DNA of 64,000 bases from an uncultured Phycisphaeraceae bacterium (GTDB lineage Bacteria; Planctomycetota; Phycisphaerae; Phycisphaerales; UBA1924). The position numbers and the translations under genes were made by a program. The DNA lies in contig CALCCF010000079.1 of the NCBI GenBank assembly GCA_937899905.1, positions 62,001 to 126,000 on the forward strand, read 5' to 3'. The notes under the pieces are model-generated. The model saw only the letters and a program-made list of their open reading frames with translations, did no database searches and was not told where the DNA came from. Position 1 is the stretch's first letter. Every line of letters begins with the position of its first letter. This document shows positions 9,326 through 35,807 of the stretch, in pieces.

Positions 9326-10282
<957 letters not shown>

Positions 10283-16328: not shown

Positions 16329-16865
16329 TCAAAACGTCGGGCCCAGGCGGACCTGGGTAGAACCAAACGCCCGGCTCTCGGGATCGGCGTCGGGCACGAA
16401 CTCGAAGTCCATGCGGGCGCCAACCCGGTCCCGGACATCCTCATAGCCGCGAACGCCGAAGTTGATCAGCAGCGCGTACCCCGGCCCAACCCCCTTGGTC
16501 GACTCCGACCGACGCATCGTGTCGGCCTCGAACCGGCCCTCACACAGCAGCTCTTGCCCGGGGCCAAAGACCTGGAACGTGAGCACGCCATCGCGATGGA
16601 ACGGCTGATCGGCGGCGTCGCCCTCGCGGTCCCTGTTGAACAGGTACACCTCGACCAGCACGCCATCGATGAAGCCGTCGAGGTCCGAGTCGATCTCGCC
16701 CCGCTTGGCCACGAGGATGCGGCGTGGCATAACGCTGGCGTCCGGCGGAGCGAACGTCGTGATGCCCGAGCCTCCGGCGCACCCTGCCGACCCGGCGAGC
16801 AGCACTCCCGCCGCCACGAGAGCGAAAAGGACGGAGAAAGCGACTCGAACGGGAGCGTCAATCAC
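16329..16865 (-). CDS. putative lipoprotein coupled to the giant secretin gene
   Basis: The 178-residue protein is of unknown function. It starts with a hydrophobic signal (VAFSVLFALVAAGVLLAGSAGC) whose Cys fits a loose lipobox, so it is probably a lipoprotein. The rest shows a short acidic DSDLDGFIDG stretch, then mixed strands (VLVEVYLFNRD, GVLTFQVFGPGQELLCEG) and a C-terminus ending in Phe. It reads like a small beta-sandwich. The GTG start overlaps the stop of the giant secretin as GTGA, so its synthesis is probably coupled to the secretin. Position and lipobox make it a candidate pilotin-type helper, but no sequence similarity to known pilotins was recognised. Confidence 0.75.
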   Translation of the reverse strand: MIDAPVRVAFSVLFALVAAGVLLAGSAGCAGGSGITTFAPPDASVMPRRILVAKRGEIDSDLDGFIDGVLVEVYLFNRDREGDAADQPFHRDGVLTFQVFGPGQELLCEGRFEADTMRRSESTKGVGPGYALLINFGVRGYEDVRDRVGARMDFEFVPDADPESRAFGSTQVRLGPTF

Positions 16866-19800
16866 GATGGGTCTTCCGGATCCTTGGGCATCGGCGGGGC
16901 GCCGCGAGGTTCGAGGAACGGCCCCATGGTATCGGGCTCCATCAGGATCTCATCGGGGAAGTAGCGAGGATCGAACTGCTCGGCCGACAGCCCGGTCAGG
17001 TCCGAACGCTCGATGAGCTTGCTCGAAGCCCCGGTGTGGCGGAACATCTCGCTGCCGGTCACGCGACGGGCCTCTGCCACTCCACCACGCCCGCCAGGGA
17101 TGATCCGCGGCGTGAGCACCACGAGGAGCTCGGTCCGTCGGTTGGTCTTCTCCCGCGTCCGGAACAGCCAGCCAACGCCGGGCAAATCGCCAAAGAGCGG
17201 CACGCTCGTGTTGCGATTGTCGTTGAATGCCTGGATCAACCCGCCGATGACCACGGTCTCGCCATTGCGCACCGTGACGGTCGTCTGCACCTCACGCGTG
17301 TTGATGATCGGGGCGGCAAAGTTCTCGCTGATCTGCGTGACCTGGCTCGACAGCGACGAGATCTCCGGCTGGATCTCCATCCGCACGAAGCCATCGGAGC
17401 TGATCGACGGCCGCACCAGCATCTCGATACCGACGTTGCGCCGCGTCACGTTCGCCTGCGTCCGGCCGTTCTCAAACGTGTCAACGCTCTCGATGATGGC
17501 GATGTCCTCACCAACCAGGATGTTGCCCGACTCGTTGTTATTGATCTGGATGACCGGCCGCGAGAGAACTTCCAATCGACCCTGGCCCTCAAGCGCGCGA
17601 ACGGCGAGCCCAAAGTCCATCGACGACAACGACAAGTTCGGCAGCCCCACCGCGGTAGCCACGCCCGTGCCCGCCGCGTTCATGCCGAATTGGTACATAT
17701 CTCCGCCGAACTCGAATAAGTCAAAGTCCAGGCCCCAGCTCGCATTCTCGTCGAGCGTAACCTCTGCAATGAGCGCCTGCACCAGCACCTGCGGCGGCGC
17801 GGCATCGAGCTCGGTCACGATGTCATTTACCGTACCGATGTACCGCGGCGAGGCCGAAACGATGACCTTGTTGCTCGTCGGATCGCCAACCACGATGACC
17901 TCGCGGTCGAGTACGCGGCTGAGCGACTCGCCGCTCTCGCCGCTGATCAGCTCACGGAAGCGATCTGCCTGCGTCTGGAAGTAGTTGCTCAGCACGGACT
18001 CGACCTCGGCGGCCTGCGCGTTCTGCAGCGAGTACACCACCTCCTCGCGCTCGGTAGCCTGAATCCCGTCGAGCCGACCGATCACGTCCGTCACGAGATC
18101 GACATACTCCTTGGTCGCCGAGACGATCAGCGTGTTTGTGCGATAGTCAATCGTGATCGCCAGCCGCTCGCGCTCGGTCGAAACCGGCGTCAGCTGCGGC
18201 TGCAGGTCCTGATCCGGATTCTCCATCGACCGCCGCGACGGCACCAGGATGAACTGATCACCCTGTCGCTGAAGGCTAAAGAGTTCCTGCAGCACGACGG
18301 CCATCTGCTCCGCGTCGGCGTTGACGAGCTGAAAGTATTTCAGGATGCGGTCGTCCACATCGCTGCGATCCAGCTCATCGATGAAGCTCAGGATCAGGTC
18401 CATCACCTCGGGCGGGCTGATGATCGTCACCGCGTTCGTCCGCTCGTCGGCCTCGATCGCGATCTGGCTGCGCACCGTGTCGTCGATCGCCGCCCGGGTC
18501 ACGGCCATCTCATCCTCGGTACCGTCCATCTCGCTGCGGATCTTGCGTCGAAACTCGATGATCGAGGCCGACTCACCACCAGAGCCGCCCACGCTCTGGC
18601 CAGACAGCAAGCTCTCGAGCAACTGCACGACCTCGCGGGCGTCAGCACTCTCGAGCTCCACACGCTGGAGGAGCTGCTGGCGAACCACCTCGGCCACATC
18701 GAGCTTCATAACAAGATCGCGAACCTTCTCGATGTCGGTGCCGGTACCGCTCACCACGATCGAGTTCGTGCGATCCTCGGAGACGACGCTCACTGAGTTC
18801 GGCCCACGCTTGTCGTTCTCCGGGTCGACGTACAGCGTGCGGATCGACTCCACGATGCTCGACGCCGTGCCGCGTTCGAGCCCGATCAGTGCAATCTCTG
18901 CCGCGTCGGCAAGTCGCTGCTCCTCATTCGAGAGGCTCTCGACCAAGCCGCGAACGATCTCCAGATTCTCGTCGCTGCACACGACGATGAGCTGGCTGGT
19001 CGCTCGGCTGGGCTCGATCGAAAACACGTCCATCTCGCTCTCGATCTCGCCGCCACGCGTGCTCGCCTCAATGCGATCGCGCATCAGCCGCTCGATCCGC
19101 GGAGCCAACTGCTCCACGTCGGCCCCACGAACGTCGATTGTGTGGAAGCCGACGGTGGCGCGACCTTCATCGCGATCGAGCCGCTGGACCAGATCATCGA
19201 GAACCGCGAAGCTGCGCGCGCTCGTGGAAACGATCAAGCTGTTCGTGCGCAGATCGGCCTGCACGATGACGGTGTCTTCCTCCCGATCCACGCCGGCGTC
19301 GCGCCGGTCGTCGAAGATGTCATCAATAAGATCGGCGACGCGATCAGCCGATGCCCGCTCGAGGCCGTAGAACCGAACCTGGTTGCGCGCCGCCGCCGCC
19401 TCGATGTCCAACATCTTGACCAACTCGGCCACAATACGAAGATTGGCTGGGCTCGCCACCACAATCAGGTTGTTGCTCGCCGGCTCGGGCAGGATCGTCA
19501 GCCCACTCAGTGTGCCAAACAAATCGCTGTCCAGGCGCGCATCGGGGTCCAGCGGGTCCTTCCCGTGCTGCACAAGCCGGAGGCGGCCGACTTGCTCGCG
19601 CAGGCCCGCGGCCTGGGGAGCGTCCGTCACGCCGTCAACCAGCGTGCTGCGGATGACCTCGGCGATGTCCGTCGCATCGGCGTGCTCGAGCGTGATGATC
19701 GACGGCTCGATCCACCCAACGGCTTCCTCGTTGTCCAGATCGGCGAGCAGCACCTCAACGAACGCCACCGCGTCCTCGCGACCAACCACAATGAGCGAGT

Positions 19801-22800
19801 TCGTGCGCGAATCGACTTCGATCGCGACCTCACCCGCGAGAGCCTGACCAGTTGCCGTCGTCGGCTGGCCCTGACGCTGCGTTCCGGGGACACGACGGAT
19901 GTCCTCCCCCCGCTGGAACAAACCCTGGATGATTCCAAGCACACGTGAGGCGTCAGCATTGCTCAGCGGGAAGATGCGAGCCAAGACCGCCTCGCCCACG
20001 GGCAGCGTGTCGAGCGCCGAAACCAGGTACTCCACCGCCTGTACGTTCGCCGGCGTCGACGCGATGAGAATCGCATTCGACCCCGAATCCACGCTGATCT
20101 GAACCGGCACCGTCAAGTCGAACTCGGGCCCGTTGTCGCCCGTGCCCATGCGTCGGCGGCGCACCTGCTCGGCCAGTGCTCGCGCCGATGCCGACTGGTT
20201 CTGCTCGGCTCTGGGCGTCAGCATCTCGCGAACCACGCGGGCGACCTGGTCGGCGCTCGCCGTCTCCAGCCGGATCATCGCAAACGACTGGGCCTCGGTG
20301 ACGCCACCCTCATCGATCGACGTGATCAGCTGCTCGACGCGATCCGCATCCGCCAGACCCGCAACGACCGCAACCGCGTTGCGTGTCGGCAGCGGCACGA
20401 TCGAGATCGGCTCGCCAACAACTCCCGGCCGATCTGCAGGCTGCTGGCGTGTCAGCCCAAGCTGGTTCGCCAGCTGCACCATCTGGTCGGGCGTGTGCTG
20501 GCTGAGCGTGATCACGCGAATCGCCTGACCAAGACCCAACGGGCCACCGGGCTCCAGGCCAACGCCTTCCGGATCGTCGCCAACCAATCGGCCCTGCAAC
20601 GTCTGGACGACCTCGCGCATCTCCCCGTACAAACGCTCACTCGAGGCGATAACCAGCGCGTTGCTGTCACGATCGACCTCAATGCCCAGACCCTCGCCAA
20701 GCTGCTGAGCCCGCACACGGAACGCCCGCAGCAGCGTTTCACGCATGCGCACGGCCGGGATGCCCTCGACCACCATCGTGCGCACGCGCACGTCCGCGGG
20801 CGAACCCTCGGCCTCGAGCGTCTGCACGAGCGCCCGGACTTGGGTGAACTCCGCGTCGGACCCACGGAACACGATCATGTTGCTCGCATCGTCGCCGAAC
20901 ACCACCGGCGTACGCGGCCCGCGGCGTCCCAGCGGATCGATAAAGATGCGCTGAACCGCCTGGGCGATGCGAGTGGCACGACCGGAACCCAGGGCGATCA
21001 CCCGAGCCTCGGGCAGCTGCGCGGCGCCCTCGCCATCGAGCGCCTTGGCGATCGTCTCGATTCGCTCCAAGTCCTGCACGTTCGCGAACACGATCAGCGA
21101 GTTGGTCTCGGCCTCAGCCGACACGACCGGCGTCTCCTCCGCATCAACCAGCACCGTCGGCATGTCCGGTGAGAATGAGCGGCGATCGTCGTCCGGCTGG
21201 GCCTCACGCCGAGCGCGCTCACGCTGGATCTGCTGCTCCAATGGTGCGCGGAACCCCTCATTGAGCGCATCGGCCACGTTCCGCGCATCCGCATTTCGCA
21301 GCGGGATCACCTTCAGCTGGCGACCCGTCGAGTACGCCTCGGTATCGAACTGGTCGAGCAGGCTGCGGATGCCCTCCCACTCCTCCTCGCCCGCAGCGAT
21401 GATCAGGGTGTTCGTCACCGAATCGCTCAGGATGCTGACGTCGCGCTCGGCTTGGCTCTTGGCCTCGATAGCGCGCGGGCCGTAAAAGAGCTGCAACGCA
21501 TCGGCAACAAGGTTCGCCTCGGCAAACCGGAGCTTGACAAACTCCGTCCGTCGCTCGCCGCCGGTCTCCACATCCAGCTCGTCGATGATCTGCACGAGCT
21601 GCTGCATCTCCTCGGGCCGGGCCGTCAGCAGCACGACGTTATCGCGTTCGCTGTACTCCACGCCGGGCGCGGGCTCACCCGGCTGCCGGCGTTGCGCCCG
21701 GACCGTCTCGCGAAGCGCGAGCCAGATGTCGACGGCCTTGGCATGCTCGAGCTGGATCCGCCGGAATTCGGTCGCCGGCGGCGCACTCGCCACGTCGAAC
21801 TGCGCGATCTGCTCGCGCACCCAGGCGACGGCCTCTTGGTTTCCACCAGAAATGATCACCGTGTTGGTGCGCTCAACGGCGGTCAGCTCGACGTTCATGC
21901 CGTCGGGCAGCGCCCGCGACAGGTCGCTGGCCACCTGGGACGCACGGGCTTGCGTGAGCTGCACGCTCACGAACGGCAACGCGGCGTCGGAATCGATCCG
22001 CTCAAGCAGATCCCGGATGAGCGGGAATTGCTCGTCCTGGGCCGAAACGACGATGGCGTTGCGGCTCGGCTGCGGCGTAACACGAATGGCCGACTCGCGC
22101 CCCTCGCTGGGGATCATCGCGCGGATGGTCTCACCCGCCTCGCGCGGATCGAGCGAACGCAACGCAAATACCTCGATGCTGCGACCCTCGGGCAAGTCGG
22201 GCTGGTCGATCTGGGCCACCATGTCCTGCAGCAGCGCCATGTCCTTCTCGCCCGCCGTGGCGATGAGCACGTTGCCATCGGTCGACCCGATGATCGTGAC
22301 ATCGCTCTGGCGGCGACCCTGGGCGCGGGCACGCTGCGCGAAGAACTGCTGGAGCGTTCGCTGCGCCCGATCAGCGCTCGCATGGCGGAGCTCGATGAGC
22401 TCGATCGGGCGATCCTCGATGCCCGGCGTCTGCGCGAGCGTCTCGGCAAACTCGACGGCCTGGTCGACCTTGGCCTTCTCGCCCACCATGATCAGCAAGC
22501 CCCGAACGCGATCGACCGAAACCGTCACGCCCTCCTGACCAAAGCTAAACCACCAGCGGCCGCGGTCGCTCTCCTGGAACGCCTGGCGGATAACCTGCGC
22601 GATCGCGTCTGGATCTCCGTCCTGGACCGGCACGGTGCGCACGATCTTCCGTGTGACATCGCTGCCCTCGGCGTCGAGGTCTTCGATGAGCCCGAGCACG
22701 AGGTCCATCGTGTCGCCCTGGCCGACGACGATAATGCTGTTGCTCGGCTCGTGGACAGTGGTGTAGAGCTTATCTTCCGGCGCCTCGTCTTGCCCGCGGT

Positions 22801-25800
22801 TCCAGCCACCCCAGACCCGCTCATCGTAGAGCTGGATGCTCAAGTCCTCGACAGCATCGTTCAGATCGTCGGCGCTCCCGTTCTTGACACGAACGATCTC
22901 CAGCCGCAAGTCCTTGGCCGCCGCCGGCATATCGAGCGCCTGCGCAAGATCCTGTACCTGCGCAAAGTCCTCGTCCGAAGCCGCGACGATCAGCGTGCCG
23001 CTGCGACGCTCGCCGACCACGCTCACCCGGGTCTGGCCGCGGCGACCACGACCCGCGGACTGCGCGCGATCGCGGAGGAAGCTCTGGATCGCCGAGGCAA
23101 CGGTGGGCGCGTCGGCCGTCTCAAGCTTAATGGTCCGGATTGGTGCACCCTCGACACTGGCGCTGTCGAGCTCCTCGGCCAGTTCGCGGACCTCGACCAT
23201 CAGCTCGGGATCAGCCCGGACAACGAGCATGCCAGCCTCATCGTCGGCCGAGACGTTCAGCTTTCCCTGCCGGCCGGGATCGCGCCCGATCAAGACTTGG
23301 TTGATCACTTGGGCAACCGTTCGCGGCAGCGCATTCTGCAAGGGCAGGATCGCCAGCTCGAGGCCCTCGTCGCGCGAAGGCGCGTCGGCATCGGTCAACA
23401 ACCGGACGATCTCAGCGTGCTGCTCGGTTGAAGCGGTCACAAGCAGCGCGTTCGTGCGCGCGTCGGCCACAAAGCTCGGCTCGGGAAGGCTCTGCCCACC
23501 GGGGCCGCGTCTTTGCGCGCGAAACAGGTCGCCGAATGCCCGTGAAAGCTGCTGCGCCTCGGCGTTCTCGAGCGAATAGCGGCGGATCGACAGCCGATCG
23601 GCGAGCGGGCTCTGGTCGATCAGGCTCACGAAGGAGTCAATCAGCGGAAGCACATCACTGGGCGCAGTCACGACCAGTCTCGTGCCGCTCGGATCGGCGA
23701 GCACGCGCACGCTATCGGGGTCGATCGACGCCTGCACGCGCTGGCCTTCGGGGCCAAGCAATGTCAATTCGCTGGCTCGAGAGGGCTCGGGCTGCCAGCG
23801 AAACCGGCGCGCCTGACGCCCCGTCGGCTGCGCACTGACGAGGTCGTTCACCGAGTCAGCAGCATCCTCGGCATCGATGTTCACCAGCGGGTAGACCTTG
23901 AGCGCGAGCGACTCGCTGGCCTCGAGCCGGGAGACCGCCGCGATCAACTCGCCAAGCACCTCAAAGTCGGTGTCGTTGGCCCAAACGACTAACGACGAAC
24001 CTATCGGGTCTGGCACAACATCAGGGTGCCCAGTAAAACCCGACGGGTTCTCCTCGCTCGCGCGACCGACGCGCTGCACGGTCTGCCGAACGATCTGCGC
24101 GATCGCGTTCGCATTGGCGCTGCTCGGCAGGCGCACCACGCGCGTGCGCGTCGCCTCGCGTGGCATTTGCTGCTGGATCTGCGCGGCGAGCTCTGCCAAG
24201 CGATCCGTGACGCGCGGCGCACCGACCACTACCAGCGTGTTGGTGTTGGGATCGACGGCGATGGTCACCGTCGGCTCGTCATCAGTCGCTACTTCGCCGC
24301 CCACCTCCACCTCAGGCGCCTCGTCCTGCACGCCGGCGAGCACGGCAGACATCACCGCCTCATGAAGCGGATTGCGTGGCTCCGGCGCCGCGCTGCCGGG
24401 GCCGATCGGCCGCTCGGTCTCCTGCATCAGTTCATCAACACCGATGACCTGGACCCTCACGCCGTCCTGCTGCTCGAGCAGCTGCCGCAGCGTTTGGGCG
24501 ACGATCGCCGCATCGGCGCGCGAGCGATCGATGGGCACCAGGCGCATCTGCCGGCTACCCGCCAGCGTGGCCGAGTCGATCTGCTGGGCGAGGCCCTCGA
24601 TCTCGAGCATCTGCGCGGCGGTACCGCGCACGATCAGCGTGTTGCTGCCCTGATCGACGCGGATGGTCGGCGGCTCGACGCCGCCCTCGGCCGACGTCAG
24701 GATGTCGGCCATGTTCTGGGCGACCTGCGCCGCATCGGCGTTGCGCAGCGGGATGAGCCGCACGATTCGATCACCCATGCCGCGATCATCGGATGGCGCA
24801 TCGAGCTCTGCGGCAACCTGCTCGGCCAGTTCCAGCAACGGGCGCGGCGCGGCGACCACCACCATGTTGCTCTCGGGCTCGGGGATGACGCGGATGGTCG
24901 GCTTGACCGCCTGATCGGGGTTCTGCGCCGCGAAGCCGCTGACCGCCCACCACGGCAGCAGGTCGACCACCGACTCCTGCTGCAGGATGGTTTCGAGTAT
25001 CGGCGCCAGCGTCTCAGCCCGCGTGTGATTCAATCGAAGCGTGAGCACACCGACGGCCTCGGGCTCGACCTGCACGTCCATCTCGCTGATAAGGCTCACG
25101 GCTTCATCGATCTGGGACTGGGCCGCGGCGATGACGATGCTGTTGCTCCGTGTCTCGGCGCGCACCGTGGGCTCGGGCTGGCCTGGCCGGCGACCCGCGC
25201 GCAGCGCGTCCTGCACCGCCGATGCAACCGATGCCGCGTCGCCCTGCGCGAGGCGCACAAGGCGAACCGCGACATCTCCGCCACCATCCGGCGATGAGTC
25301 CATCGCGGCGATGATCTCGCGCGCCATCGCCATCATCGCGCTGGGCACGCTGAGTACGACGCGATTCGACGCCTGATCGGCGCGGACCGTGGGCTGGGGA
25401 ATCGGTAGCCCAGCGCGCTCGGCACGAACGAGCTCTTGTGGCCAGCGGGCCCGGTCGCTCAGCAACGGCTCGACCATCTGGGCCACGCTCGTCGCGCTCG
25501 CGTTGCGCAGCGAGACCACAGTGACATCGGCCATCGGGGCCGCGGGCGTTTCGTCGTCGAAGCGTTGCAAGAGCTCGATGGCTTGCACGACCGCCTGCTC
25601 ACCACCGACGACAAGAACCGTGCCGGTGCTCGGCTCGGCGGCGATCTCTAGGCCCTGGCGACCCTGATCGATAGTCTGTTGGGCGATGCCGGTAACAGCC
25701 TGAACGAGCGTCTCGGCCTGCGCGCGAACCGGGCTGTACGTGAGCAGCGTGCGGCCGCCGTCAACCGGGGGCTGGTCGAGGCGATCGATCAGCTCGCGCG

Positions 25801-28800
25801 CGAGTTCGACCATCTCGGACGGGCCGGAGACCAGCAGCGTGTTGGTGCTCGTGTCGGCTTCGACGCGAACCGGCGTGACCTGCGCCGCAGACGGATCCCG
25901 GCGCATGATCTCGCGCAGGATGAACATGTTGCTCTCACGCTGCTGCATGAGCAGGCGTTCGATTACCGGGCCGATGCGATCGGCATCGGCGTGGCTGAGC
26001 TCAAAGGTCTCCACACCCACCGCATCGGGATCGAAAGGCCGCGTGTCGAGCTCGGCGACCAGCTCACCGACGAGCTCGATGTCGTTCTGCGCGCCGGTCA
26101 GGATGAGGGCGTTCGCCCCGCCCACAGAACTCACACGCACGTCACCGCCGCTCGGCAGCGTCAGGCCAGCAATCGAACGCTCGAGCTGGGGCGCAATCAG
26201 ATCGGCACGGCCATAGCTGAGCGGGACAACGCGAATGACGGGCGCGTTGGCGCCAACCTCATCGGTGTCGAGCGCATCAACAAGGCTCTGCGCGAGCTCC
26301 TGGGCCACCGGAGGCGCCGAGATAATCAGCGTGTTGGTCGCTGGCTCGGCGCTGACGGTGAGGAGCGACGCAACGTCGGCAACGCCTAGACCACCGCCGA
26401 CGGCCTGCGACTCGCGCAGCCGCGTGGTCAAGAGGTCTCGAAGCAGCGGTTCGAGCCTGTCGGCTCTCGCGTGCTGCAGCTTGTAGAGCTTGACGGTCGC
26501 CTCGGCGCGCGCAGGCGCGCCGTCGAGATCGGCCAGGAGCGCCTCGACCTGCGCGAACGCGTCGGCGGGGCCGCTCACGATGATCGTTCGCGTGGCGGGC
26601 TCGACCGAGACGCTCAGCGGCGTGCGCGGGCTGCCGCCGAGTGCTCCACTGCTCGCCAGCTCGCGGATCGACGAGGCGATCGCCTGCGGGTCCGCGCGAG
26701 TCGGGCGGTACGTGCGTACGGCCACATCGCCGGCGAGTTCCGAACGGTCGAGCGATCGCACGATCTGCTCGAAGCCCGAGAGGCGGCGCGAGGGCGCATC
26801 GACGATGAGAGCGTTGGTCGCGCGGTTCGCCCGAACGACGACCTCCTTGGGCTGCTGGAGATCTGGCCGCGCCCGGCCGCGGGAATCGCGCGGCATAGGC
26901 GGCTGGGGGTACATCTCGTCGATCGTGCGCGCGAGCTCGTCCGCCCGCGCATGCTGCAATGGGAAGATGCGGATCTCGCGATCTTCGTCGTCGATCGTGC
27001 GTGCATCGTTCAGCTGCGAGACGATCGCCTCGATCTCGGGGATCACGTCGGGGTGGGCCGAGACGAGCAGCGTGTTGGTCGCCGCATCGGGGCGGATGTC
27101 CACCGGCTGGCGGGCGCGCTCCTCGGGAGTACGTCGCTGATAGCTGTCCTGGAGCATGCGCGCGATATTGCTGGCCTCGGTCGTGCGCAGACGCAAAATG
27201 CGAAGCGGCTGACGGCCAGCCGATTGCTGCTGGTCGAGATCTCGCACGAGCTGCTCGATGATGCCGAATTGGGCCGGCACGGCGGCGGCGAGGATCGTGT
27301 TCGTGCTCTCGATGGCCTCGAACACCGGCTCGGGCCCGCCCTGCTGGCGGAGCGACGAGCTGGACGACACGAGGTCGCGCAGGAACTCGATGACATCAGC
27401 GGCACGCGCCTGCTGGAGCTGGATGAGCCGGGCCTCGCGGGGCGGGCCGGCCTGGTCCTGCAAGAGATCGATCACGCCGAGGAAACGCTGCATCGCTTCC
27501 GTGTCGGCGACGATCTCCAGCGCGTTGGTGATCTCGTTGATCGACAGCTCGACCTCGCCCGCGCCGGGCACGCCGGCCACCTGGGCCTGATAGATCGAGA
27601 GCGCACGATCGCCGACCTCTTGCGCATCGGCGTTGGCGATCGGCACGATGGCCAACTCACGCTCCTCAGGCACGGCCGAGAGGTCGGTGAGCATCGCCTC
27701 GACACGATCGAAGGTCACGTCGTCGCCGGCCACGATGAGCGTTCCGCTGCGCGGCTCGGCCTCGATCGTGACGCGAACACTCTGGCGACCAGCCTGGGCC
27801 GGCGCACTCAGGTTGCCCTGGCGGTTCATGCCCTCGAGCACGCGCTTGATGGTCTCGACGTCGGCGTCGACCACGCGGTACGTCCGCAGCTCGGCGCTCG
27901 GTGGAACCTCGACCTGGTCGAGCTGCTCGGCAAGCTGTCGCAGTGACTCGTGCATCTCGACGGGTGCGTCGATGATGAGCGAGTTGCTGGATTCGTCGGC
28001 TGAGACGACGACCTGCCGAGGCTGCTGGAGCCAGGGCATCGGTTGGTTGCGGCGATCCCTGGGGATCGGCGGCTCGGGGTACAACCGGTTCATGGCGTCG
28101 GCGACGTTGGTCGCCTTGGCCACGCTCAGCCGGAAGAGCAGCGGCGCGCGATCGGGCTCCTGCGTGCTCTCTTCGTTGATCTCGTCGACGAAGGACTTGA
28201 TGTCGGTCAGCAATTCCTGGTGGGCCGAGACGATGAGCGTGTTGGTTGCCTCATCGGCGCGCACATCGACGGGCCTCGCCACACGGTCGGCCTGCGGGCG
28301 CTGGCGGTATTGGTCGCTGAGCATCCGCGCGATATTGCCGGCGTTGGCGGTGCGCAGCTGGAGGATCTTCAGCGGCGGGAGATCCGTCGGCTCGACGGTG
28401 TCCAGCCGGCGCACGAGGTCGGCGACCATCTGGTGCTGCGCGGGCTCGGCCTTGACGACGAGCGTATTGGTGCGTTCGAGCACAGAGAGCTCGGGTGCGG
28501 GCGCTTCACGGGCGGGATCCACCGGCTCGCGGTCGGCGATGAGTTGCTCGAGCACCGGCTTGACTTGGGCCGCGCTGGCAAACTCCAAGTCGAGCATGCG
28601 CGTGGTTCGCGCGGGGGGCACGAGTTGCTGCACCTGGCCGAGCACCTGCTGGAAGAGCGATACCGCGGCGCTCGAGCCCCGGGCGATGATCGCGCCGGCG
28701 GCGGCGTCAGGCGTGAGAGTGATGTCGGCGAGCGCCGGATCACCGCGGCGCGTCGCTTCGGCCTCAAACACCGGGCGCACGCGGTCGAGGAGCGACGCGG

Positions 28801-30709
28801 GCGTGGTGTTGCGCACGGGCACGGTCACGAAGCGCGTATCGCCGCTGGGCTTGTCGAGCTGGTTGACGATCGATTCGATGACCGAGAACTGGCCCTCGCC
28901 CGCGCGGACGATGAGCTGGTCGAGGTCGTCGACGGCTTCGAATTGCGGCGCGTCGTACTGCGAGCCGTCATCGGGGCGGAGCATGGCCTCGGCCACGCGC
29001 TCAACCCTGGGGGCAAGCTGGCTGGGCTTGGCGGAGGTCAGCGTGTACGTCCGCGACTCGCGGGTGACGACGACGCTGGCCTCGCTCTGGCGGAGCAGAT
29101 CGACGAAGCGTTCGAGGCCGGCGCGCTGGCCGACGACGGTGACGAGGCGGCGTGGGGCATCGACATCGACGCTCAGCGGCTCGCGCTCGGACATGCCGCT
29201 TCGCTCGTAGAGGCCGAGCGCTCGATCGACGATGAACTGTGGCTCGCCCCGGGTGACCGTCAGGATGCGCACGTCGCGCGTGAACGACTGGTTGTCGTCA
29301 AACGCGCGTGCGAGCTCCTCGAAGGCCTCGACGTCGGCGGTTGGTCCATTGACCATGATCGCGCGGCCATCGCCGATGGCGGCGAAGCGCAGGACCTGCT
29401 GCTGGCGTGGCGAGAGCAGGCGGCCAACGGTGCGCTCGACCGAGGTCGCGTCGACGCGCTCGAGCTCGATGACCATGGTGCGCAGGGCCGTCGAGGCGCG
29501 CCCGTCCAGGCCAGGGTCGAGCTCGCCGAGGAGGGCCTCGGCCTGGAGCACGAGTGAGGTGTTGCCGATGACGGTGATCTTGCCGATGCTCGGGATCGGG
29601 ATGACCGTTGGCTTGCGCTCCGCGGGCAGCCCGGCGAAGAGGCGATCGAGCTGACGCGCGGCTTCCTCGGGCGAGATTGCTTCGAGAGTGAAGCTGACCA
29701 TCCGCTGCTGGGCGTCCATGTCGCCCTCGGACTGGTCGAGCATCTCGATGATCTCTTGCGCGGCCACGAGCCGGCGGGTCGGGCCGATGGCGATGATCGA
29801 GTTGGATCGCTCGTTGGGCTCGAACCGCACCGGTGGCTTTGTGACGTCGTCGAGCACCTCGACGCGGTTACCCGACTTCTGGATCGTCTTCTCATACTCG
29901 GGTACGAGCGTGCGCAGCGTGCCGATGACGTCCTGCACGCGCGCGGTCTTCAGGTGGTACAGGCGATAGTCGGAAGTGCTCGGCGGCTGGCTGTCGACCA
30001 GACGCAGGACCTCGCGGATGCGCTGGAGCTGCTCGGCGGTTTCGGTGACGATGACGAGGTTCTGCTCGGGCACCGGAACGAGCGAGCCGTATGAGGCCAC
30101 CATCGCCTTCACTTGCTCGGCAACGGCGGCGGCATCGACGTTGGTGAGCGGGATGGCCAGCGTCACGATCTCGCCGGGGCGGATATCGCTGGGCAGATCG
30201 CCCTGGAAGATCGCGCCCGGCTGTCGCGCGGCGTCGGCGATGGTGCGCAGGTAGAGGTACTCGCCCTCGGGCGTGAGCCGCACGTTGTCGGCGAGCAGGA
30301 ACCGGTTGAGGATGTCCAGCGCGGTGTCGAAGTCGTACGACTCGCCGCTGTTGAATCGCATGGGGCGTTCGGGTACGGCCGCCTGATAGATGATCGGTAC
30401 GCGCGCCTCACGCGAGAAGAAGCTGAGGACCTCCGAGTACGGCGCGTTCTCGAAGCTGAAGCGGATTGGCGGGCGGGCGATCTGCTCTCCAGACTCGGCG
30501 GCGGCCGGCGGATCGAGCCGAGGCGCTTCGGCCAGGGCCGAGCCGGAGGCGGACTCTTGCGCGGCTTGCACGCTGACGGCCATGCCGCAGGACAGCACGA
30601 GTGCGCCCGCGATCGTTCCCTTCACGGCGGCGCTCATGCGCGGCTCTCCCTTCGTGTTCGGCCTGGAGCCTCGCGGCATCGCGTCTTCGTGTAGCGTGTG
30701 TACGGTCAT
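16862..30709 (-). CDS. giant GspD-type secretin with about 50 N-domain repeats
   Basis: This is the outer-membrane pore subunit of a type II secretion system, but about 4,615 residues long against roughly 650-700 in classical GspD. The order is a signal peptide (about residues 25-50), an N0-like domain (about 82-156, FSFENAPYSEVLSFFSREA), about 50 tandem N1/N3 (NolW-like) repeats of about 83 residues (178-4306), and one secretin domain (about 4307-4540). The secretin domain has LIAEVTLDENASWGLDF, EVLSRPVIQINNNESGNILV, TVTVRNGETVVIGGLI and VPLFGDLPGVGWLFRTREK. A tail of about 70 residues follows. The reading frame is unbroken. The ATG at 30709 overlaps the upstream stop as ATGA, like its neighbours. 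An ATG at 30637 with GGGAG upstream would start directly at the signal peptide and is a real alternative. Confidence 0.93.
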   Translation of the reverse strand: MTVHTLHEDAMPRGSRPNTKGEPRMSAAVKGTIAGALVLSCGMAVSVQAAQESASGSALAEAPRLDPPAAAESGEQIARPPIRFSFENAPYSEVLSFFSREARVPIIYQAAVPERPMRFNSGESYDFDTALDILNRFLLADNVRLTPEGEYLYLRTIADAARQPGAIFQGDLPSDIRPGEIVTLAIPLTNVDAAAVAEQVKAMVASYGSLVPVPEQNLVIVTETAEQLQRIREVLRLVDSQPPSTSDYRLYHLKTARVQDVIGTLRTLVPEYEKTIQKSGNRVEVLDDVTKPPVRFEPNERSNSIIAIGPTRRLVAAQEIIEMLDQSEGDMDAQQRMVSFTLEAISPEEAARQLDRLFAGLPAERKPTVIPIPSIGKITVIGNTSLVLQAEALLGELDPGLDGRASTALRTMVIELERVDATSVERTVGRLLSPRQQQVLRFAAIGDGRAIMVNGPTADVEAFEELARAFDDNQSFTRDVRILTVTRGEPQFIVDRALGLYERSGMSEREPLSVDVDAPRRLVTVVGQRAGLERFVDLLRQSEASVVVTRESRTYTLTSAKPSQLAPRVERVAEAMLRPDDGSQYDAPQFEAVDDLDQLIVRAGEGQFSVIESIVNQLDKPSGDTRFVTVPVRNTTPASLLDRVRPVFEAEATRRGDPALADITLTPDAAAGAIIARGSSAAVSLFQQVLGQVQQLVPPARTTRMLDLEFASAAQVKPVLEQLIADREPVDPAREAPAPELSVLERTNTLVVKAEPAQHQMVADLVRRLDTVEPTDLPPLKILQLRTANAGNIARMLSDQYRQRPQADRVARPVDVRADEATNTLIVSAHQELLTDIKSFVDEINEESTQEPDRAPLLFRLSVAKATNVADAMNRLYPEPPIPRDRRNQPMPWLQQPRQVVVSADESSNSLIIDAPVEMHESLRQLAEQLDQVEVPPSAELRTYRVVDADVETIKRVLEGMNRQGNLSAPAQAGRQSVRVTIEAEPRSGTLIVAGDDVTFDRVEAMLTDLSAVPEERELAIVPIANADAQEVGDRALSIYQAQVAGVPGAGEVELSINEITNALEIVADTEAMQRFLGVIDLLQDQAGPPREARLIQLQQARAADVIEFLRDLVSSSSSLRQQGGPEPVFEAIESTNTILAAAVPAQFGIIEQLVRDLDQQQSAGRQPLRILRLRTTEASNIARMLQDSYQRRTPEERARQPVDIRPDAATNTLLVSAHPDVIPEIEAIVSQLNDARTIDDEDREIRIFPLQHARADELARTIDEMYPQPPMPRDSRGRARPDLQQPKEVVVRANRATNALIVDAPSRRLSGFEQIVRSLDRSELAGDVAVRTYRPTRADPQAIASSIRELASSGALGGSPRTPLSVSVEPATRTIIVSGPADAFAQVEALLADLDGAPARAEATVKLYKLQHARADRLEPLLRDLLTTRLRESQAVGGGLGVADVASLLTVSAEPATNTLIISAPPVAQELAQSLVDALDTDEVGANAPVIRVVPLSYGRADLIAPQLERSIAGLTLPSGGDVRVSSVGGANALILTGAQNDIELVGELVAELDTRPFDPDAVGVETFELSHADADRIGPVIERLLMQQRESNMFILREIMRRDPSAAQVTPVRVEADTSTNTLLVSGPSEMVELARELIDRLDQPPVDGGRTLLTYSPVRAQAETLVQAVTGIAQQTIDQGRQGLEIAAEPSTGTVLVVGGEQAVVQAIELLQRFDDETPAAPMADVTVVSLRNASATSVAQMVEPLLSDRARWPQELVRAERAGLPIPQPTVRADQASNRVVLSVPSAMMAMAREIIAAMDSSPDGGGDVAVRLVRLAQGDAASVASAVQDALRAGRRPGQPEPTVRAETRSNSIVIAAAQSQIDEAVSLISEMDVQVEPEAVGVLTLRLNHTRAETLAPILETILQQESVVDLLPWWAVSGFAAQNPDQAVKPTIRVIPEPESNMVVVAAPRPLLELAEQVAAELDAPSDDRGMGDRIVRLIPLRNADAAQVAQNMADILTSAEGGVEPPTIRVDQGSNTLIVRGTAAQMLEIEGLAQQIDSATLAGSRQMRLVPIDRSRADAAIVAQTLRQLLEQQDGVRVQVIGVDELMQETERPIGPGSAAPEPRNPLHEAVMSAVLAGVQDEAPEVEVGGEVATDDEPTVTIAVDPNTNTLVVVGAPRVTDRLAELAAQIQQQMPREATRTRVVRLPSSANANAIAQIVRQTVQRVGRASEENPSGFTGHPDVVPDPIGSSLVVWANDTDFEVLGELIAAVSRLEASESLALKVYPLVNIDAEDAADSVNDLVSAQPTGRQARRFRWQPEPSRASELTLLGPEGQRVQASIDPDSVRVLADPSGTRLVVTAPSDVLPLIDSFVSLIDQSPLADRLSIRRYSLENAEAQQLSRAFGDLFRAQRRGPGGQSLPEPSFVADARTNALLVTASTEQHAEIVRLLTDADAPSRDEGLELAILPLQNALPRTVAQVINQVLIGRDPGRQGKLNVSADDEAGMLVVRADPELMVEVRELAEELDSASVEGAPIRTIKLETADAPTVASAIQSFLRDRAQSAGRGRRGQTRVSVVGERRSGTLIVAASDEDFAQVQDLAQALDMPAAAKDLRLEIVRVKNGSADDLNDAVEDLSIQLYDERVWGGWNRGQDEAPEDKLYTTVHEPSNSIIVVGQGDTMDLVLGLIEDLDAEGSDVTRKIVRTVPVQDGDPDAIAQVIRQAFQESDRGRWWFSFGQEGVTVSVDRVRGLLIMVGEKAKVDQAVEFAETLAQTPGIEDRPIELIELRHASADRAQRTLQQFFAQRARAQGRRQSDVTIIGSTDGNVLIATAGEKDMALLQDMVAQIDQPDLPEGRSIEVFALRSLDPREAGETIRAMIPSEGRESAIRVTPQPSRNAIVVSAQDEQFPLIRDLLERIDSDAALPFVSVQLTQARASQVASDLSRALPDGMNVELTAVERTNTVIISGGNQEAVAWVREQIAQFDVASAPPATEFRRIQLEHAKAVDIWLALRETVRAQRRQPGEPAPGVEYSERDNVVLLTARPEEMQQLVQIIDELDVETGGERRTEFVKLRFAEANLVADALQLFYGPRAIEAKSQAERDVSILSDSVTNTLIIAAGEEEWEGIRSLLDQFDTEAYSTGRQLKVIPLRNADARNVADALNEGFRAPLEQQIQRERARREAQPDDDRRSFSPDMPTVLVDAEETPVVSAEAETNSLIVFANVQDLERIETIAKALDGEGAAQLPEARVIALGSGRATRIAQAVQRIFIDPLGRRGPRTPVVFGDDASNMIVFRGSDAEFTQVRALVQTLEAEGSPADVRVRTMVVEGIPAVRMRETLLRAFRVRAQQLGEGLGIEVDRDSNALVIASSERLYGEMREVVQTLQGRLVGDDPEGVGLEPGGPLGLGQAIRVITLSQHTPDQMVQLANQLGLTRQQPADRPGVVGEPISIVPLPTRNAVAVVAGLADADRVEQLITSIDEGGVTEAQSFAMIRLETASADQVARVVREMLTPRAEQNQSASARALAEQVRRRRMGTGDNGPEFDLTVPVQISVDSGSNAILIASTPANVQAVEYLVSALDTLPVGEAVLARIFPLSNADASRVLGIIQGLFQRGEDIRRVPGTQRQGQPTTATGQALAGEVAIEVDSRTNSLIVVGREDAVAFVEVLLADLDNEEAVGWIEPSIITLEHADATDIAEVIRSTLVDGVTDAPQAAGLREQVGRLRLVQHGKDPLDPDARLDSDLFGTLSGLTILPEPASNNLIVVASPANLRIVAELVKMLDIEAAAARNQVRFYGLERASADRVADLIDDIFDDRRDAGVDREEDTVIVQADLRTNSLIVSTSARSFAVLDDLVQRLDRDEGRATVGFHTIDVRGADVEQLAPRIERLMRDRIEASTRGGEIESEMDVFSIEPSRATSQLIVVCSDENLEIVRGLVESLSNEEQRLADAAEIALIGLERGTASSIVESIRTLYVDPENDKRGPNSVSVVSEDRTNSIVVSGTGTDIEKVRDLVMKLDVAEVVRQQLLQRVELESADAREVVQLLESLLSGQSVGGSGGESASIIEFRRKIRSEMDGTEDEMAVTRAAIDDTVRSQIAIEADERTNAVTIISPPEVMDLILSFIDELDRSDVDDRILKYFQLVNADAEQMAVVLQELFSLQRQGDQFILVPSRRSMENPDQDLQPQLTPVSTERERLAITIDYRTNTLIVSATKEYVDLVTDVIGRLDGIQATEREEVVYSLQNAQAAEVESVLSNYFQTQADRFRELISGESGESLSRVLDREVIVVGDPTSNKVIVSASPRYIGTVNDIVTELDAAPPQVLVQALIAEVTLDENASWGLDFDLFEFGGDMYQFGMNAAGTGVATAVGLPNLSLSSMDFGLAVRALEGQGRLEVLSRPVIQINNNESGNILVGEDIAIIESVDTFENGRTQANVTRRNVGIEMLVRPSISSDGFVRMEIQPEISSLSSQVTQISENFAAPIINTREVQTTVTVRNGETVVIGGLIQAFNDNRNTSVPLFGDLPGVGWLFRTREKTNRRTELLVVLTPRIIPGGRGGVAEARRVTGSEMFRHTGASSKLIERSDLTGLSAEQFDPRYFPDEILMEPDTMGPFLEPRGAPPMPKDPEDPS
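17792..30178 (-). repeat. protein-level tandem array of about 50 secretin N1/N3-like repeats
   Basis: Each unit runs about 70-130 residues with the same layout. First comes a strand such as VIPLRNADA, then a helix with A-x-x-V/I-A-x-x-L, a variable loop, and an acidic or Asp-containing turn. The signature [S/T]-N-[S/T/A]-[L/I]-[I/V]-V follows (examples ATNTLIVSA, RTNSLIVST, TSNKVIVSA), and then a helix ending in L-x-x-L-D. I delimited 50 units by hand; a few early units (3-7) have decayed signatures, so the count could shift by one or two. The DNA copies are diverged, so the array is old rather than a recent slippage product. Confidence 0.85.
26270..28609 (-). repeat. five-unit block duplication inside the secretin array (2 x about 1,170 bp)
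   Basis: Units starting near residue 701 and near residue 1091 match one another in order over five repeats, with a constant offset of about 390 residues. Examples are LRTANAGNIARML versus LRTTEASNIARML, and LQQPRQVVVSADESSNSLI versus LQQPKEVVVRANRATNALI. The matching YPEPPIPRDRR / YPQPPMPRDSR loop is also kept. This is direct evidence for growth of the array by multi-domain duplication. Confidence 0.75.
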
Positions 30710-31695
30710 GGCCGTTTCCTTTCGCGCGCGGCGGCAAGCGCCTCGCCGTTTTGGACCTGGAATCTCTCTTCTCCGAGCTCGAACGTGGCGGCCTGGCTCC
30801 CGATCGCCGCGAGGCGCAGGCTCCCGAGGTTCTGGCCGAGCGCGAGCGTGCGCCGGCGGCCGTCGCGGTGGACGACGATCGCGAACTGCCCGCTGCGGCC
30901 CTCGACGACACCGACGAGCGTCCAGCCATCACCAGCGGGTGGCGGGGCTGGGGGTGTTGGGGCTGGCCTTTGCTGCGGCTTGGCCGCGACGGCCGGCTGG
31001 GGCTTTGGCGCCGTGCGGAATGGATCGAACGAGACGAGCGTGGCAAGTCGGCTTTGGGCCACTTCGTCGAGCGGATCGATCGGGATGTCGCCGACGATCG
31101 CGCCGTCGTCTCCAACGAATAGGACGGACAACGCCATAGTGAGGGAGAACGCGGCGGGCTGGTCGGCGGCGACTCGCTCGGGCTTGATCGTCCACGATTC
31201 GATGCCGAGCGACCAGCGCTGCGCTTCGGCGAGCGTCATGGCCTTGAGCACGCTTTCGAGCGAACCGCGGCCCTCGATCTGGATGCGCACGAGGCCGGCA
31301 TCGACGCGGCCCTGGAGCGACTGGCGGAACCCGCGCGCGATGCCGCGCGCGTTGGCGGCGGGATTGCCGAGCGCCTGGGGTGGCAGGGAGTCGACCTCGA
31401 CTCGTTGGAGGCCAGCGGCCGTGGCGAGCGCGCTTCCCGCGGTGCGCAGGCGATGCTCGAGCGACTCTCGCTCGCCACCGATGGCCGTCGCAATGATCGC
31501 TTCGAGGTCGCGTCGCACCTCCGCGTCGTTGCGCATCGTTACCTCGAGCCGACGGTTGCTTCCCTCGAGATTCCCGATGGCGGTTCGTATCTCTTCGGCA
31601 CGTTGCGCATACAGCCGCTCGTACGCGAGGTACCCCGCGAGACCTGCGCCGATGACACCGCCCGCGATGATCGCCAGCTTCAGCTTGGGGCTCAT
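30706..31695 (-). CDS. T2SS assembly-platform protein: GspM/PilO-like with GspC/PilP-like C-terminal domain
   Basis: The 329-residue protein has one N-terminal membrane helix (residues 6-24), a coiled-coil (31-90), and an alpha/beta region (about 95-225) in the place of the GspM/PilO fold. After FDPFRTAP comes a Pro/Ala/Lys linker (about 230-256) and a C-terminal module of small strands (WTLVGVVEGRSGQFAIVVH, TLALGQNLGSLRLAAIG). That module resembles the homology region of GspC or PilP, which contacts the secretin N0 domain. It overlaps both gspL and the secretin gene by 4 nt. A fused M-C protein would explain why no separate gspC is present. The membrane and linker layout is seen; the fold assignments are inference. 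Confidence 0.7.
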   Translation of the reverse strand: MSPKLKLAIIAGGVIGAGLAGYLAYERLYAQRAEEIRTAIGNLEGSNRRLEVTMRNDAEVRRDLEAIIATAIGGERESLEHRLRTAGSALATAAGLQRVEVDSLPPQALGNPAANARGIARGFRQSLQGRVDAGLVRIQIEGRGSLESVLKAMTLAEAQRWSLGIESWTIKPERVAADQPAAFSLTMALSVLFVGDDGAIVGDIPIDPLDEVAQSRLATLVSFDPFRTAPKPQPAVAAKPQQRPAPTPPAPPPAGDGWTLVGVVEGRSGQFAIVVHRDGRRRTLALGQNLGSLRLAAIGSQAATFELGEERFQVQNGEALAAARERKRP

Positions 31696-33239
31696 GCGTC
31701 ACCCCCGTCGCTGGTGTCAGGCTCGGCCGCCGGAGCCCCGTCTTTGGCTGCGGGCTCGGTTGTCTTGGCCACGGGGATGGTGCGGCGGTTGGTCTCGATG
31801 TCGAGCTTGAAGCCCAGGCCCGCGTCGGGGCCCTGGGTTTGCACAACGTAGATCGGGTCGTTCACGAGGCGGCCGCGCACCATGCCCGAGAGTTCGCGTG
31901 TCGCGCCCACGCCCTGCAACGAGATTGCCCCGCGGACGGCCGGGCGATACTCGCCGTCCCAGAAGTTGTACCGGCTGTTCTGCTGTGGATCGCCGAACCA
32001 GACTCCGCTGCGCGAGACGCCGCCCAACTGATCGATGCGCACACCCTCGACAGAAGCCTGTGAGAGCACACGCTCGACATGGGCAGACCACTCCGGACGA
32101 GATTGGGCGAGCGCACGGAGGTGCTCGAGCCGGGCATACTTGGGGAGAAAGTCCTGGTACTGCTCGTTGAGCCGCTGGTTCTGTGAGCGGAGCAGGGCCT
32201 GCTCATCGGTGAGGTCTCCAAGAGCGATGAAGCCGAAGACGCCCGCGACGCCGGCGATGGCGACCAGGGCCATCACGCCGAGGAGGGCGCGCTCACGCGT
32301 CTTGGATCTGGTTGCGACTGCCTTCCGAGGGCTGAGCAGGTCGATGCGGTCGCACGAGGGCATGCCAACGCCGGCGAGCGCAAGACATCGGGTTGGCTCG
32401 GCGCTGCCCACGCTGCTCGGTGCGGCGATCGATGTGGCAGAGAGCGCGCTCGATTCGACCTCGATCGCGTCGCCCACGGCCTCGGCGATGGCCGTGCACA
32501 GGGTGTCGCCGCCGATGACGACCGCGCTCTGGACGGGCAGGGAGTGCTGGGCCACGCGGTAGCCCATCCATGTGCGCTTGACCTCGACGGCGATGCGTCT
32601 GACAAAGCCCTCCTGGTCACCCGAGGGCCAGGTGGCGTCGATGCCGCGGCTGGTGACCACGCCGCCGGGCTCAACGACGACGACCTCGACCGACGAAGCG
32701 CCGGGCGAGATGACGATGCGGGCCTGGCCGGCGTCGGGCAGGCCGGCGATGCAGGCCGAGCATTGGGCGCGGAGCATGACCGAGCCGAGCTTCAGCTTTG
32801 CGGCGGCCAGCATGGAGCGCATCCATGCGAGGCGGTCGCTTGGCGCAGAGGCACCGAGGAGGTCGAGCGTGCCGTTCTGCTCGCCGAGGATGGCGTAGTC
32901 GCTGGCGGCGTCGGCGCCCTGCATCGGCATGGCGCGGCTCATCTGCAGCTTGACCATTGCGGGCAGTTGGTTCTCGCTCGGCGGGCGGGGCAGGCTCAGG
33001 CGCTTGAGCAGCACGTCTCCGCGGCCGGCAACCCATACGACGCTGCGGCCGGCGATATCGGCCTGGCGGAGTTGTTCGGCGAACCAGCGGCCGACCTGCG
33101 AGGCGTCGGAGGCGTCCACATTCTCGGGCACGCGGACGCAGATGCCCGGGCCGAGGCTGGGGCGGCCCTTCTCGGTCGCGATGGCGACGGCCGTGAGCCA
33201 CCCGCCGTGCCACTCGATGGCGATGCGTGCGGCGCTCAT
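31692..33239 (-). CDS. gspL: T2SS assembly-platform protein GspL (PilM-PilN-like)
   Basis: The 515-residue protein has an actin-like cytoplasmic part (residues 1-300) with a PilM-style opening (ARIAIEWHGGWLTAVAI), RLSLPRPPSENQLPAMVKLQM, and a phosphate-loop-like VVIGGDTL. A single membrane helix (about 318-340) follows, then a coiled-coil (345-385) and a periplasmic alpha/beta part with a conserved-looking DQLGGVSRSGVWFGD. This equals PilM and PilN in one chain, as in GspL. It should bind the ATPase GspE inside and GspM-type partners outside. It overlaps gspK and the gspM-like gene by 4 nt each. Its own ATPase is not encoded in this window. Confidence 0.8.
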   Translation of the reverse strand: MSAARIAIEWHGGWLTAVAIATEKGRPSLGPGICVRVPENVDASDASQVGRWFAEQLRQADIAGRSVVWVAGRGDVLLKRLSLPRPPSENQLPAMVKLQMSRAMPMQGADAASDYAILGEQNGTLDLLGASAPSDRLAWMRSMLAAAKLKLGSVMLRAQCSACIAGLPDAGQARIVISPGASSVEVVVVEPGGVVTSRGIDATWPSGDQEGFVRRIAVEVKRTWMGYRVAQHSLPVQSAVVIGGDTLCTAIAEAVGDAIEVESSALSATSIAAPSSVGSAEPTRCLALAGVGMPSCDRIDLLSPRKAVATRSKTRERALLGVMALVAIAGVAGVFGFIALGDLTDEQALLRSQNQRLNEQYQDFLPKYARLEHLRALAQSRPEWSAHVERVLSQASVEGVRIDQLGGVSRSGVWFGDPQQNSRYNFWDGEYRPAVRGAISLQGVGATRELSGMVRGRLVNDPIYVVQTQGPDAGLGFKLDIETNRRTIPVAKTTEPAAKDGAPAAEPDTSDGGDA

Positions 33240-35328: not shown

Positions 35329-35807
35329 GGGCCACCCCCGACCGGCTCAAGCGGGACGAGCTGGCGCAGCGTGGCGATCACCGGCCACTCGTCGGCCTCG
35401 GATCCCGTAGGCACGCGGCGGACGCGCACGGTGGCGAGCGTCAGGTCTGGCCACGAGCTGGGCTCGAGCTCGACCTCGCAGAACCACTCGGCTTGCGGCG
35501 GTGTCGTTGCCTCGGTCTCGGGTGTCGCCCAGTCGCTCGCGGGGCCAGTGAGCTCGCGATCGCTGAGCGCGCCGGTCTCGAGGAGGCCAAGGGCCGTCCG
35601 TGCGACGCCGAATGCACCCAGGCGATACTCGGCGTCGATGATGCGGCGCGTACCGGCTTCGAGCTGTGTCAGGACGGCGAGGCCACCGATGACGAAGAGC
35701 GCCAGCGCGATGACGAGGTCGAGCAGGACGACGCCCGCACGATGCTCGCTGTTCCGGCGTCCGTGCCGGTGTGTTGGCTCGCGGCTCCGCCGCTCGCGTG
35801 CTGGCAT
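35325..35807 (-). CDS. gspI: T2SS minor pseudopilin GspI-like
   Basis: The 160-residue protein has a basic N-terminal stretch of about 23 residues, then AGVVLLDLVIALALFVIGGL, a pilin-like hydrophobic helix. The +5 acidic residue is Asp instead of Glu. The remaining body is short with WFCEVELEPSSWPDLTLATVRVRR, which fits the GspI strand pattern. Position between gspH and gspJ supports GspI. The gene starts 3 bp after the gspH stop and its stop overlaps the gspJ start. Confidence is moderate because the leader is atypical. Confidence 0.75.
   Translation of the reverse strand: MPARERRSREPTHRHGRRNSEHRAGVVLLDLVIALALFVIGGLAVLTQLEAGTRRIIDAEYRLGAFGVARTALGLLETGALSDRELTGPASDWATPETEATTPPQAEWFCEVELEPSSWPDLTLATVRVRRVPTGSEADEWPVIATLRQLVPLEPVGGGP

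Follow-up and report, generated by a model that had tools for sequence, protein, structure and literature searches.

A GspD-type secretin with about fifty N1-type domains encoded in a type II secretion operon of a Phycisphaeraceae bacterium

A secretin about seven times as long as the usual ones is encoded in the window, that is, in the whole stretch of 64,000 nucleotides analysed here from an uncultured Phycisphaeraceae bacterium, the cause of its length being a periplasmic domain that is repeated around 50 times. The protein is almost certainly an expanded GspD, and the reading that best explains the data as a whole, which we consider just on the probable side, is that of a GspD of a type II secretion system (T2SS) in which the array grew between N1 and N3 and the rings would be stacked into a long conduit. 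The original prediction of a giant type II secretin with N0, about 50 N1-type domains and one ordinary pore was borne out by domain searches, comparison with the PDB, operon context and a tree. Added to it here are the location of the array between N1 and N3, the existence of a widespread expanded clade that includes some Verrucomicrobiota, and the coexistence of ordinary-length secretins.

Results

The giant secretin and its domains

As shown in Table 1, the gene corresponds to one frame of the size predicted (about 4,615 residues), without internal break and without any N in its DNA. Two possible starts were found, M1 (30709) and M25 (30637), each with a purine-rich stretch closely upstream.

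Table 1. Coordinates of the secretin gene, of its domains and of the upstream operon genes in the window.
Feature	Coordinates	Strand	Basis or remarks
Giant GspD-type secretin gene	16862..30709	-	4,615 aa, ~501 kDa
Likely signal peptide, after M25	30563..30637	-	Judged by eye from the sequence
N0 domain, residues ~78-165	30215..30478	-	PDB profile match and model match
Repeat 1, counterpart of N1 in ordinary GspD	29966..30196	-	Repeat HMM; best match of N1 for 15/17 ordinary GspDs
Repeats 2-49, expanded array	18035..29992	-	Pfam, repeat HMM, collinearity, models
Repeat 50, counterpart of N3 in ordinary GspD	17768..18064	-	Repeat HMM; best match of N3 for 13/17 ordinary GspDs
Secretin pore domain, residues 4372-4537	17099..17596	-	Pfam and PDB profile matches
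GspC/GspM-like protein	30706..31695	-	Weak C-terminal HR-type match; 4-nt overlap with the secretin M1 start
GspL/PilM-like protein	31692..33239	-	PilM_2 in 14/16 rows of its alignment
GspK-like protein	33236..34585	-	Helix-hairpin-helix match and position
GspJ-like pseudopilin	34582..35328	-	Prepilin motif and position
GspI-like small protein	35325..35807	-	Position only
GspH-like pseudopilin	35811..36914	-	C-terminal run of pentapeptide-like units
GspG major pseudopilin	36959..37558	-	Between the GspF and GspH-like genes
GspF inner-membrane protein	37669..38859	-	Best model GspF

The domains were counted with the two Pfam models proposed for it at the outset. Secretin_N (PF03958) passed individually in 41 stretches, summing 1181 bits, and Secretin (PF00263) matched a single stretch, the pore domain of Table 1, with 153 bits. 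A repeat HMM, seeded with the repeats of the giant secretin and iterated over 21 secretin frames (the window frame and 20 others), recognised 50 repeats between residues 172 and 4314, with a median spacing of 79 aa and an E value of 5.4e-4 for the weakest domain, the model being partly built from this same protein. The array is thus made of many Secretin_N-type units and not of few.

A profile made from an alignment of N0 and four repeats matched GspD 5wq7 in the PDB with an E value of 4.5e-34, and also 5zdh, 6hcg and others across N0 to N3. The predicted model of N0 was superposed on the solved N0 of ETEC GspD (4jtm) with a Z of 10.8 (80 residues, rmsd 2.8) and on the GspD of the GspC-GspD complex (3oss) with a Z of 10.3, in agreement with the N0-like domain that had been predicted. 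With the C-terminal profile, the ten best PDB matches were all T2SS secretins, 5wq7 reaching an E of 4.1e-76. Both by sequence and by Foldseek, the best PDB matches of the pore and of N0 plus the N-domains were GspD structures.

Among all models, the highest score was that of NCBIfam TIGR02517 (GspD), with 1121.8 bits summed over 27 stretches versus a cut-off of 351.35; when scored on parts, the C-terminal 512 aa alone reached 263.9 bits and the N-terminal 407 aa alone 100.5, both below this cut-off. The PilQ model gave 334 bits on the whole protein, exceeding its cut-off of 284.35 through the repeats, and the SctC model gave 292.3 bits, also above its cut-off. Identity as PilQ, the secretin of type IV pili, was rejected on the basis of the scores of the GspD and PilQ models and of the neighbouring genes, among which are that of GspG and that of a GspF-like protein, with GspF as its best model. 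The secretin is assigned as GspD also because its gene is the last one in a type II secretion operon, and from this identity it is predicted to form a homo-oligomeric, gated outer-membrane channel for the export of folded proteins. As solved GspDs have 15 chains per complex, a 15-mer of the giant secretin would have a computed mass of around 7.5 MDa.

The type II secretion operon

The genes upstream of the secretin are encoded on its same strand in the order GspF, GspG, GspH-like, GspI-like, GspJ-like, GspK-like, GspL/PilM-like and GspC/M-like, and 4-nt overlaps were found for each of the last five upstream genes and the secretin. GspI, GspJ, GspK and GspL were assigned partly through position and weak matches. 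A putative HR domain in the GspC-like protein, whose gene has the expected position, was indicated by weak matches (E 0.0038 and 0.077), and a PDB sequence search with the alignment of this protein returned no GspC, the matches being weak and of coiled-coil type only. Regarding GspE, 14 matches to PF00437 were found in the genome, none of them on the contig of the window.

With the eight operon proteins as phmmer queries, between two and eight of them were recovered, in order, ahead of the giant gene in eight Planctomycetota families (f1, f2, f4, f6, f8, f14, f15 and f16). The genes for F, G, J, K and L are located beside a giant of Verrucomicrobiota (G344), and operon genes also adjoin a 1,968-aa secretin of Gemmataceae. 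Two exceptions were detected: in G067 GspF is encoded on the opposite strand, and in G129 no operon protein was found in the stretch taken, its GspL being located about 17 kb beyond the secretin gene.

A GspL profile (A4) built from 16 expanded-secretin loci was assayed on a class sample drawn with the same settings as the secretin survey described below. Matches at E 1e-55 or better were obtained in 59 of 148 genomes, the next GspL scoring 6e-43, and the expanded-type secretin and its GspL were present in the same 59 genomes (43 + 14 + 2). The high scores are partly produced by construction, because the profile was made from expanded-secretin loci, and the informative part of the co-occurrence is that of the remaining genomes, where this GspL is absent or distant. 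In a looser search, 23 of 24 genomes had some GspL match at E 1e-5, mostly partial and PilM-like.

Other features of this region are worth recording. The GspH-like pseudopilin carries a C-terminal run of pentapeptide-like units (RDFES REFET RDFER ...), of which a pattern count found 6 in the congener L239, 10 in the congener L240 and from 0 to 2 at five further loci. Directly upstream of gspF, a protein with a GC-type dockerin domain is encoded (38908-40446, minus strand), and the congener L240 has a relative in the equivalent position; as a guess, it is possibly a substrate. On the other side of the secretin, two ABC permeases of 754 and 866 aa (10286-12550 and 12457-15057, both on the minus strand), in which the Pfam permease domain is confined to the C-terminal part, adjoin an ABC ATPase (9326-10282) and a binding protein (15189-16163).

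Distribution of expanded secretins

By hand count, frames above 2,000 aa were found in at least 62 of 120 genomes of the same family as the window genome, and within the same order giants were found in f1, f2, f4, f5 and f6. Profile A1, which covers the pore and the two N domains that precede it, was employed with a class threshold of E 1e-75 and matched in 87 of 148 sampled genomes of the class Phycisphaerae. Frames of at least 2,000 aa were present in 43 of these 148 genomes, distributed over eleven families and including the window's genome and four congeners, and frames of 1,500-1,999 aa in 14. Two shorter frames (G414 and G437) score like the expanded forms, that of G414 running into a contig end. 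At the level of the phylum, 38 of 196 sampled genomes matched, with frames of at least 2,000 aa only in six, all of them of this class, outside which the longest matching frame had 1,413 aa. The search of planctomycete proteomes for secretins above 2,000 residues, proposed with the original prediction, places them, among the planctomycete genomes sampled, across one class.

The surveys of genome samples covered Planctomycetota and Verrucomicrobiota. Of the 80 best-scoring loci in a scan of named genomes, most bore the labels Phycisphaerales, Phycisphaerae or Planctomycetota, from which the class name used here was taken, and others were from Verrucomicrobiota. Restriction of the giants to Phycisphaerae is ruled out by the Verrucomicrobiota loci, whose frames above 2,400 aa contain 24 to 47 repeats. 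Among the matches listed for 59 sampled Verrucomicrobiota genomes, a giant was found only in the seed genome. Some public metagenome-assembled genomes labelled Cyanobacteria, Leptolyngbya, Akkermansia muciniphila or Proteobacteria also carry expanded secretins (L150, L156, L184, L188, L190 and L203); L184, L188 and L203 group among the Verrucomicrobiota giants in the tree and the arrays of L150 and L156 run collinear with that of the window; some of these genomes are probably mislabelled or misbinned.

The repeat number ranges from 8 to 63 in the expanded clade and from 21 to 63 in the main count of frames above 2,000 aa, the longest frame being that of G263 (6,169 aa from stop to stop, 63 repeats); a 2,103-aa frame with 10 repeats was found at L216. 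Intermediate secretins, from Gemmataceae (L214), Thermoguttaceae (L224), Pirellulales (L225) and f19 (L141), have 8-14 N domains in 1,285-1,968 aa. A constant repeat number that could act as a tight ruler was rejected because of this variation, which reaches 39 to 50 even among the f1 members counted.

The window's own genome also encodes ordinary-length secretins, with frames of 833, 870 and 1,119 aa. The first of them (L263:4882-7380) has four N1-type domains, no match to any T2SS protein of the window was found among its neighbours, and three congeners have frames comparable to it in size and score.

Evolution of the array

A tree of 96 secretin regions was obtained by a quick method, with SH-aLRT supports only and a midpoint root. 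A branch with support 100 separated 72 rows, with all the expanded forms among them, from 24 ordinary GspDs; the expanded side includes three rows that bear the label ordinary (L076, L094 and L096), but these were cut out of frames of 1,722, 2,602 and 1,676 aa. The Verrucomicrobiota giants nest in a group with giants of f5, f6, f15 and f16 (supports 97 and 95), a nesting that points to horizontal transfer.

The window repeats were paired one-to-one and in order with those of L127 (50 of 50), two congeners showing such a complete match, and 47 pairs in order were obtained with L128, which has 48 repeats. All the 39 repeats of L129 were paired, the counterparts of window repeats 7-15 and 29-30 being missing, and 41 of the 50 window repeats were paired in order with each of the f2 members L130 and L131. 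With L160, L163, L165, L170 and L237 there were 29-43 pairs in imperfect order, and in more distant families only the ends of the array paired with some regularity. Within the window array, repeats 8-11 have repeats 13-16 as their closest paralogues, an offset of five. In L269 (G107), the 50 repeats are distributed over three adjacent frames as 25, 17 and 8, which could reflect a sequencing error or recent decay.

When the N domains of 17 ordinary GspDs were mapped to the giants, N1 corresponded to the first repeat and N3 to the last one in the majority of cases for the window (Table 1) and in 17 of 17 for L128, and N2 was scattered; in L133, L138, L255 and L144, N1 was mostly not mapped to the first repeat. 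Because the first repeat resembles the ordinary N1 and the last one N3, the array was most likely amplified between them, from three domains (N1-N2-N3) to fifty, as far as can be judged from these resemblances.

Estimates of dN/dS for the 50 repeats, made by a simple counting method with trimmed ends and with dS often near 1, were 0.04-0.40 against L127 and 0.04-0.55 against L126, with a median of 0.13 in both cases and all of them below 0.6; for the pore the values were 0.05-0.07. The repeats are under purifying selection.

Predicted structure and domain spacing

The AlphaFold model of repeats 18-24 consists of seven beta-alpha-beta-beta-alpha domains, three of them with an added helix (mean pLDDT 79, pTM 0.29), and that of N0 plus four repeats had a mean pLDDT of 78 and a pTM of 0.43; the orientation of the domains is left unfixed in these models. 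The modelled pair of repeats 1-2 was superposed on the N1-N2 pair of XcpQ (5mp2) with a Z of 11.9 (rmsd 3.3 over 133 residues) and the interior pair 19-20 with a Z of 10.2 (rmsd 5.4). Superposition of a model pair on cryo-EM GspD (5zdh) was poor (rmsd 9.5 over 130), and that of the whole chain on GspD failed (TM 0.13).

The spacing at the junctions was measured from the LD at the end of a domain to a fixed place in the first strand of the next one. In 22 giants, of which some are closely related, 836 of the 956 junctions had a spacing of 12-14 residues and four were outliers of 89-265; in 23 ordinary GspDs it was 12-13 residues at 47 of 49 junctions. Rings stacked through fixed axial contacts would require such a constant spacing, which is compatible with a stack but no proof of it. 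The variation in length lies mostly between alpha1 and the beta2-beta3 turn, with 27-147 residues and the middle half of the segments within 36-49, and these lengths are kept repeat by repeat, being the same in the window and L127 and close in L130. From the model of repeats 18-24 it seemed that long and short loops might alternate strictly, but this was rejected by a shuffle test (alternation 0.51 vs. 0.51 shuffled in the window).

Discussion

The original prediction had offered an extended channel, a folded scaffold or binding sites as functions for the array. Of these, an extended channel is favoured here because of the constant domain spacing, the collinearity and the retention of N0, N1 and N3 at their proper ends, none of the three being proven. 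By analogy with GspD, a lengthened, stacked periplasmic conduit has in our opinion an even chance of being right. Each repeat would form one homo-oligomeric ring, and the rings would stack as do N1-N2-N3 in PulD and GspD. The result would be a conduit through the periplasm, roughly 100-150 nm long, with the ordinary gated pore at its end. At the inner end, N0 would dock to the assembly platform via the GspC-like protein, and folded exoproteins would cross through the conduit a wide periplasm such as that reported for planctomycetes. The length comes from 51 rings at an assumed 2.5-3 nm per ring, which yields about 130-150 nm, PulD setting an upper limit below 5 nm per ring. For Phycisphaerae and some Verrucomicrobiota in general, a closed tube built from some 50 rings in a stack, of the order of 100-150 nm long and of about 7.5 MDa, that bridges a deep periplasm is a possibility that we put forward tentatively, as somewhat short of probable.

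Precedents for stacking are found in two reports: PulD has four N rings in a length of 20 nm, with N1-N3 rings packed tightly and constriction sites at N3 (PMC6882859), and PilQ of Thermus thermophilus has six rings, is 35 nm long and spans a wide periplasm (PMC5745081). Planctomycetes can have a greatly enlarged periplasm, as imaged in Planctopirus and relatives in a study of Planctopirus, Gemmata and Rhodopirellula (PMC5394234), but these are outside the present class, and there no matching frame in the sampled genomes exceeds 1,413 aa. The ordinary-length secretins of the same genome show that a giant one is not required by a wide periplasm as such, and they weaken the idea that a periplasm wide throughout would explain everything. 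These coexisting secretins, together with the low pTM and a repeat number that drifts between genera, count against stacking as a simple answer. The weak HR match of the GspC-like protein and the location of GspE off the contig of the window are further points against the overall reading.

The alternative that survives best, even if unlikely, is a flexible tether, in which N0-N1 and N3 would act as usual and the interior domains, like beads on a string, would link the pore to a distant or moving inner membrane without a closed tube. The low pTM of the seven-repeat model, the poor superposition of the whole chain and the variable repeat number would fit such a tether, as would the flexibility described for the long tail of T. 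thermophilus PilQ (PMC5745081), but the domains follow one another at distances no longer and no more variable than those of the N domains in ordinary GspD, and every repeat is conserved.

Rather improbable is a lumen for substrate handling, where domains with unequal loops would serve as a series of constrictions or binding sites for holding or sorting cargo, and length would be of secondary importance. Its basis would be the concentration of the length variation between alpha1 and the beta2-beta3 turn, the similarity of these lengths for each repeat in the window, L127 and L130, and the constriction sites of PulD at N3 (PMC6882859); against this, no cargo or binding motif was identified and the middle half of the segments differs by few residues.

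Still less probable is that the N domains have multiplied by recombination as a neutral ratchet, being retained since each one must fold and stack, with the length itself useless. The offset of five between repeats 8-11 and 13-16, the repeats missing from L129 and the broad range of counts, with L216 at 10 repeats, are traces that such a process could leave; however, f1 and f2 members agree in the order of their repeats and largely in how many they have, frames of at least 2,000 aa are maintained in eleven families of the class sample, and a gene of 13.8 kb has a cost and is under purifying selection. Finally, that the giant frame is an artefact of assembly or annotation is scarcely credible and is ruled out for the family, despite the split array of L269, since the congeners L126 and L127 of the window carry the same 50 repeats, unbroken giants are present in six one-contig genomes (G036, G067, G109, G146, G228 and G258), in a record titled chromosome (G348/L163) and in many assemblies, and the DNA copies within the frame have diverged, none of the ungapped repeats reported there exceeding 76% identity.

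Type II secretion has been modelled structurally on the basis of channels some 20 nm long (PulD). The expanded GspD clade, with constant ends and a middle that goes from a handful to 63 domains, is a natural length series that could serve to test whether the N domains set the span of the secretion machine. A giant GspD also raises the question of how so long a tube could be served by a pseudopilus, bears on protein export in planctomycete-type cells with deep periplasms and, if the rings form, would be a giant tubular assembly from one gene. No report of secretins of such size was found in the open-access literature searched, for some topics in part of the matches, and an earlier report is possible.

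Compared with GspD, PulD and XcpQ (5wq7, 6hcg, 5zdh, 5mp2), the giant secretin shares N0, the N1-type domains, the gated pore domain, the operon context and the spacing between domains, but it has fifty N1-type domains instead of three, and could reach 100-150 nm versus the 20 nm of PulD. With T. thermophilus PilQ (N0-N5), called "exceptionally long" in PMC5745081, it has in common a secretin lengthened by extra stacked N domains and a wide periplasm, stacking being inferred in our case; in contrast, PilQ serves the type IV pilus and DNA uptake, has six rings only and lacks a T2SS operon. Also comparable are the intermediate secretins L214, L224, L225 and L141, which have the same repeat and are located on the same side of the tree, but are far smaller, both in residues and in N domains, than the expanded forms of up to 6,169 aa.
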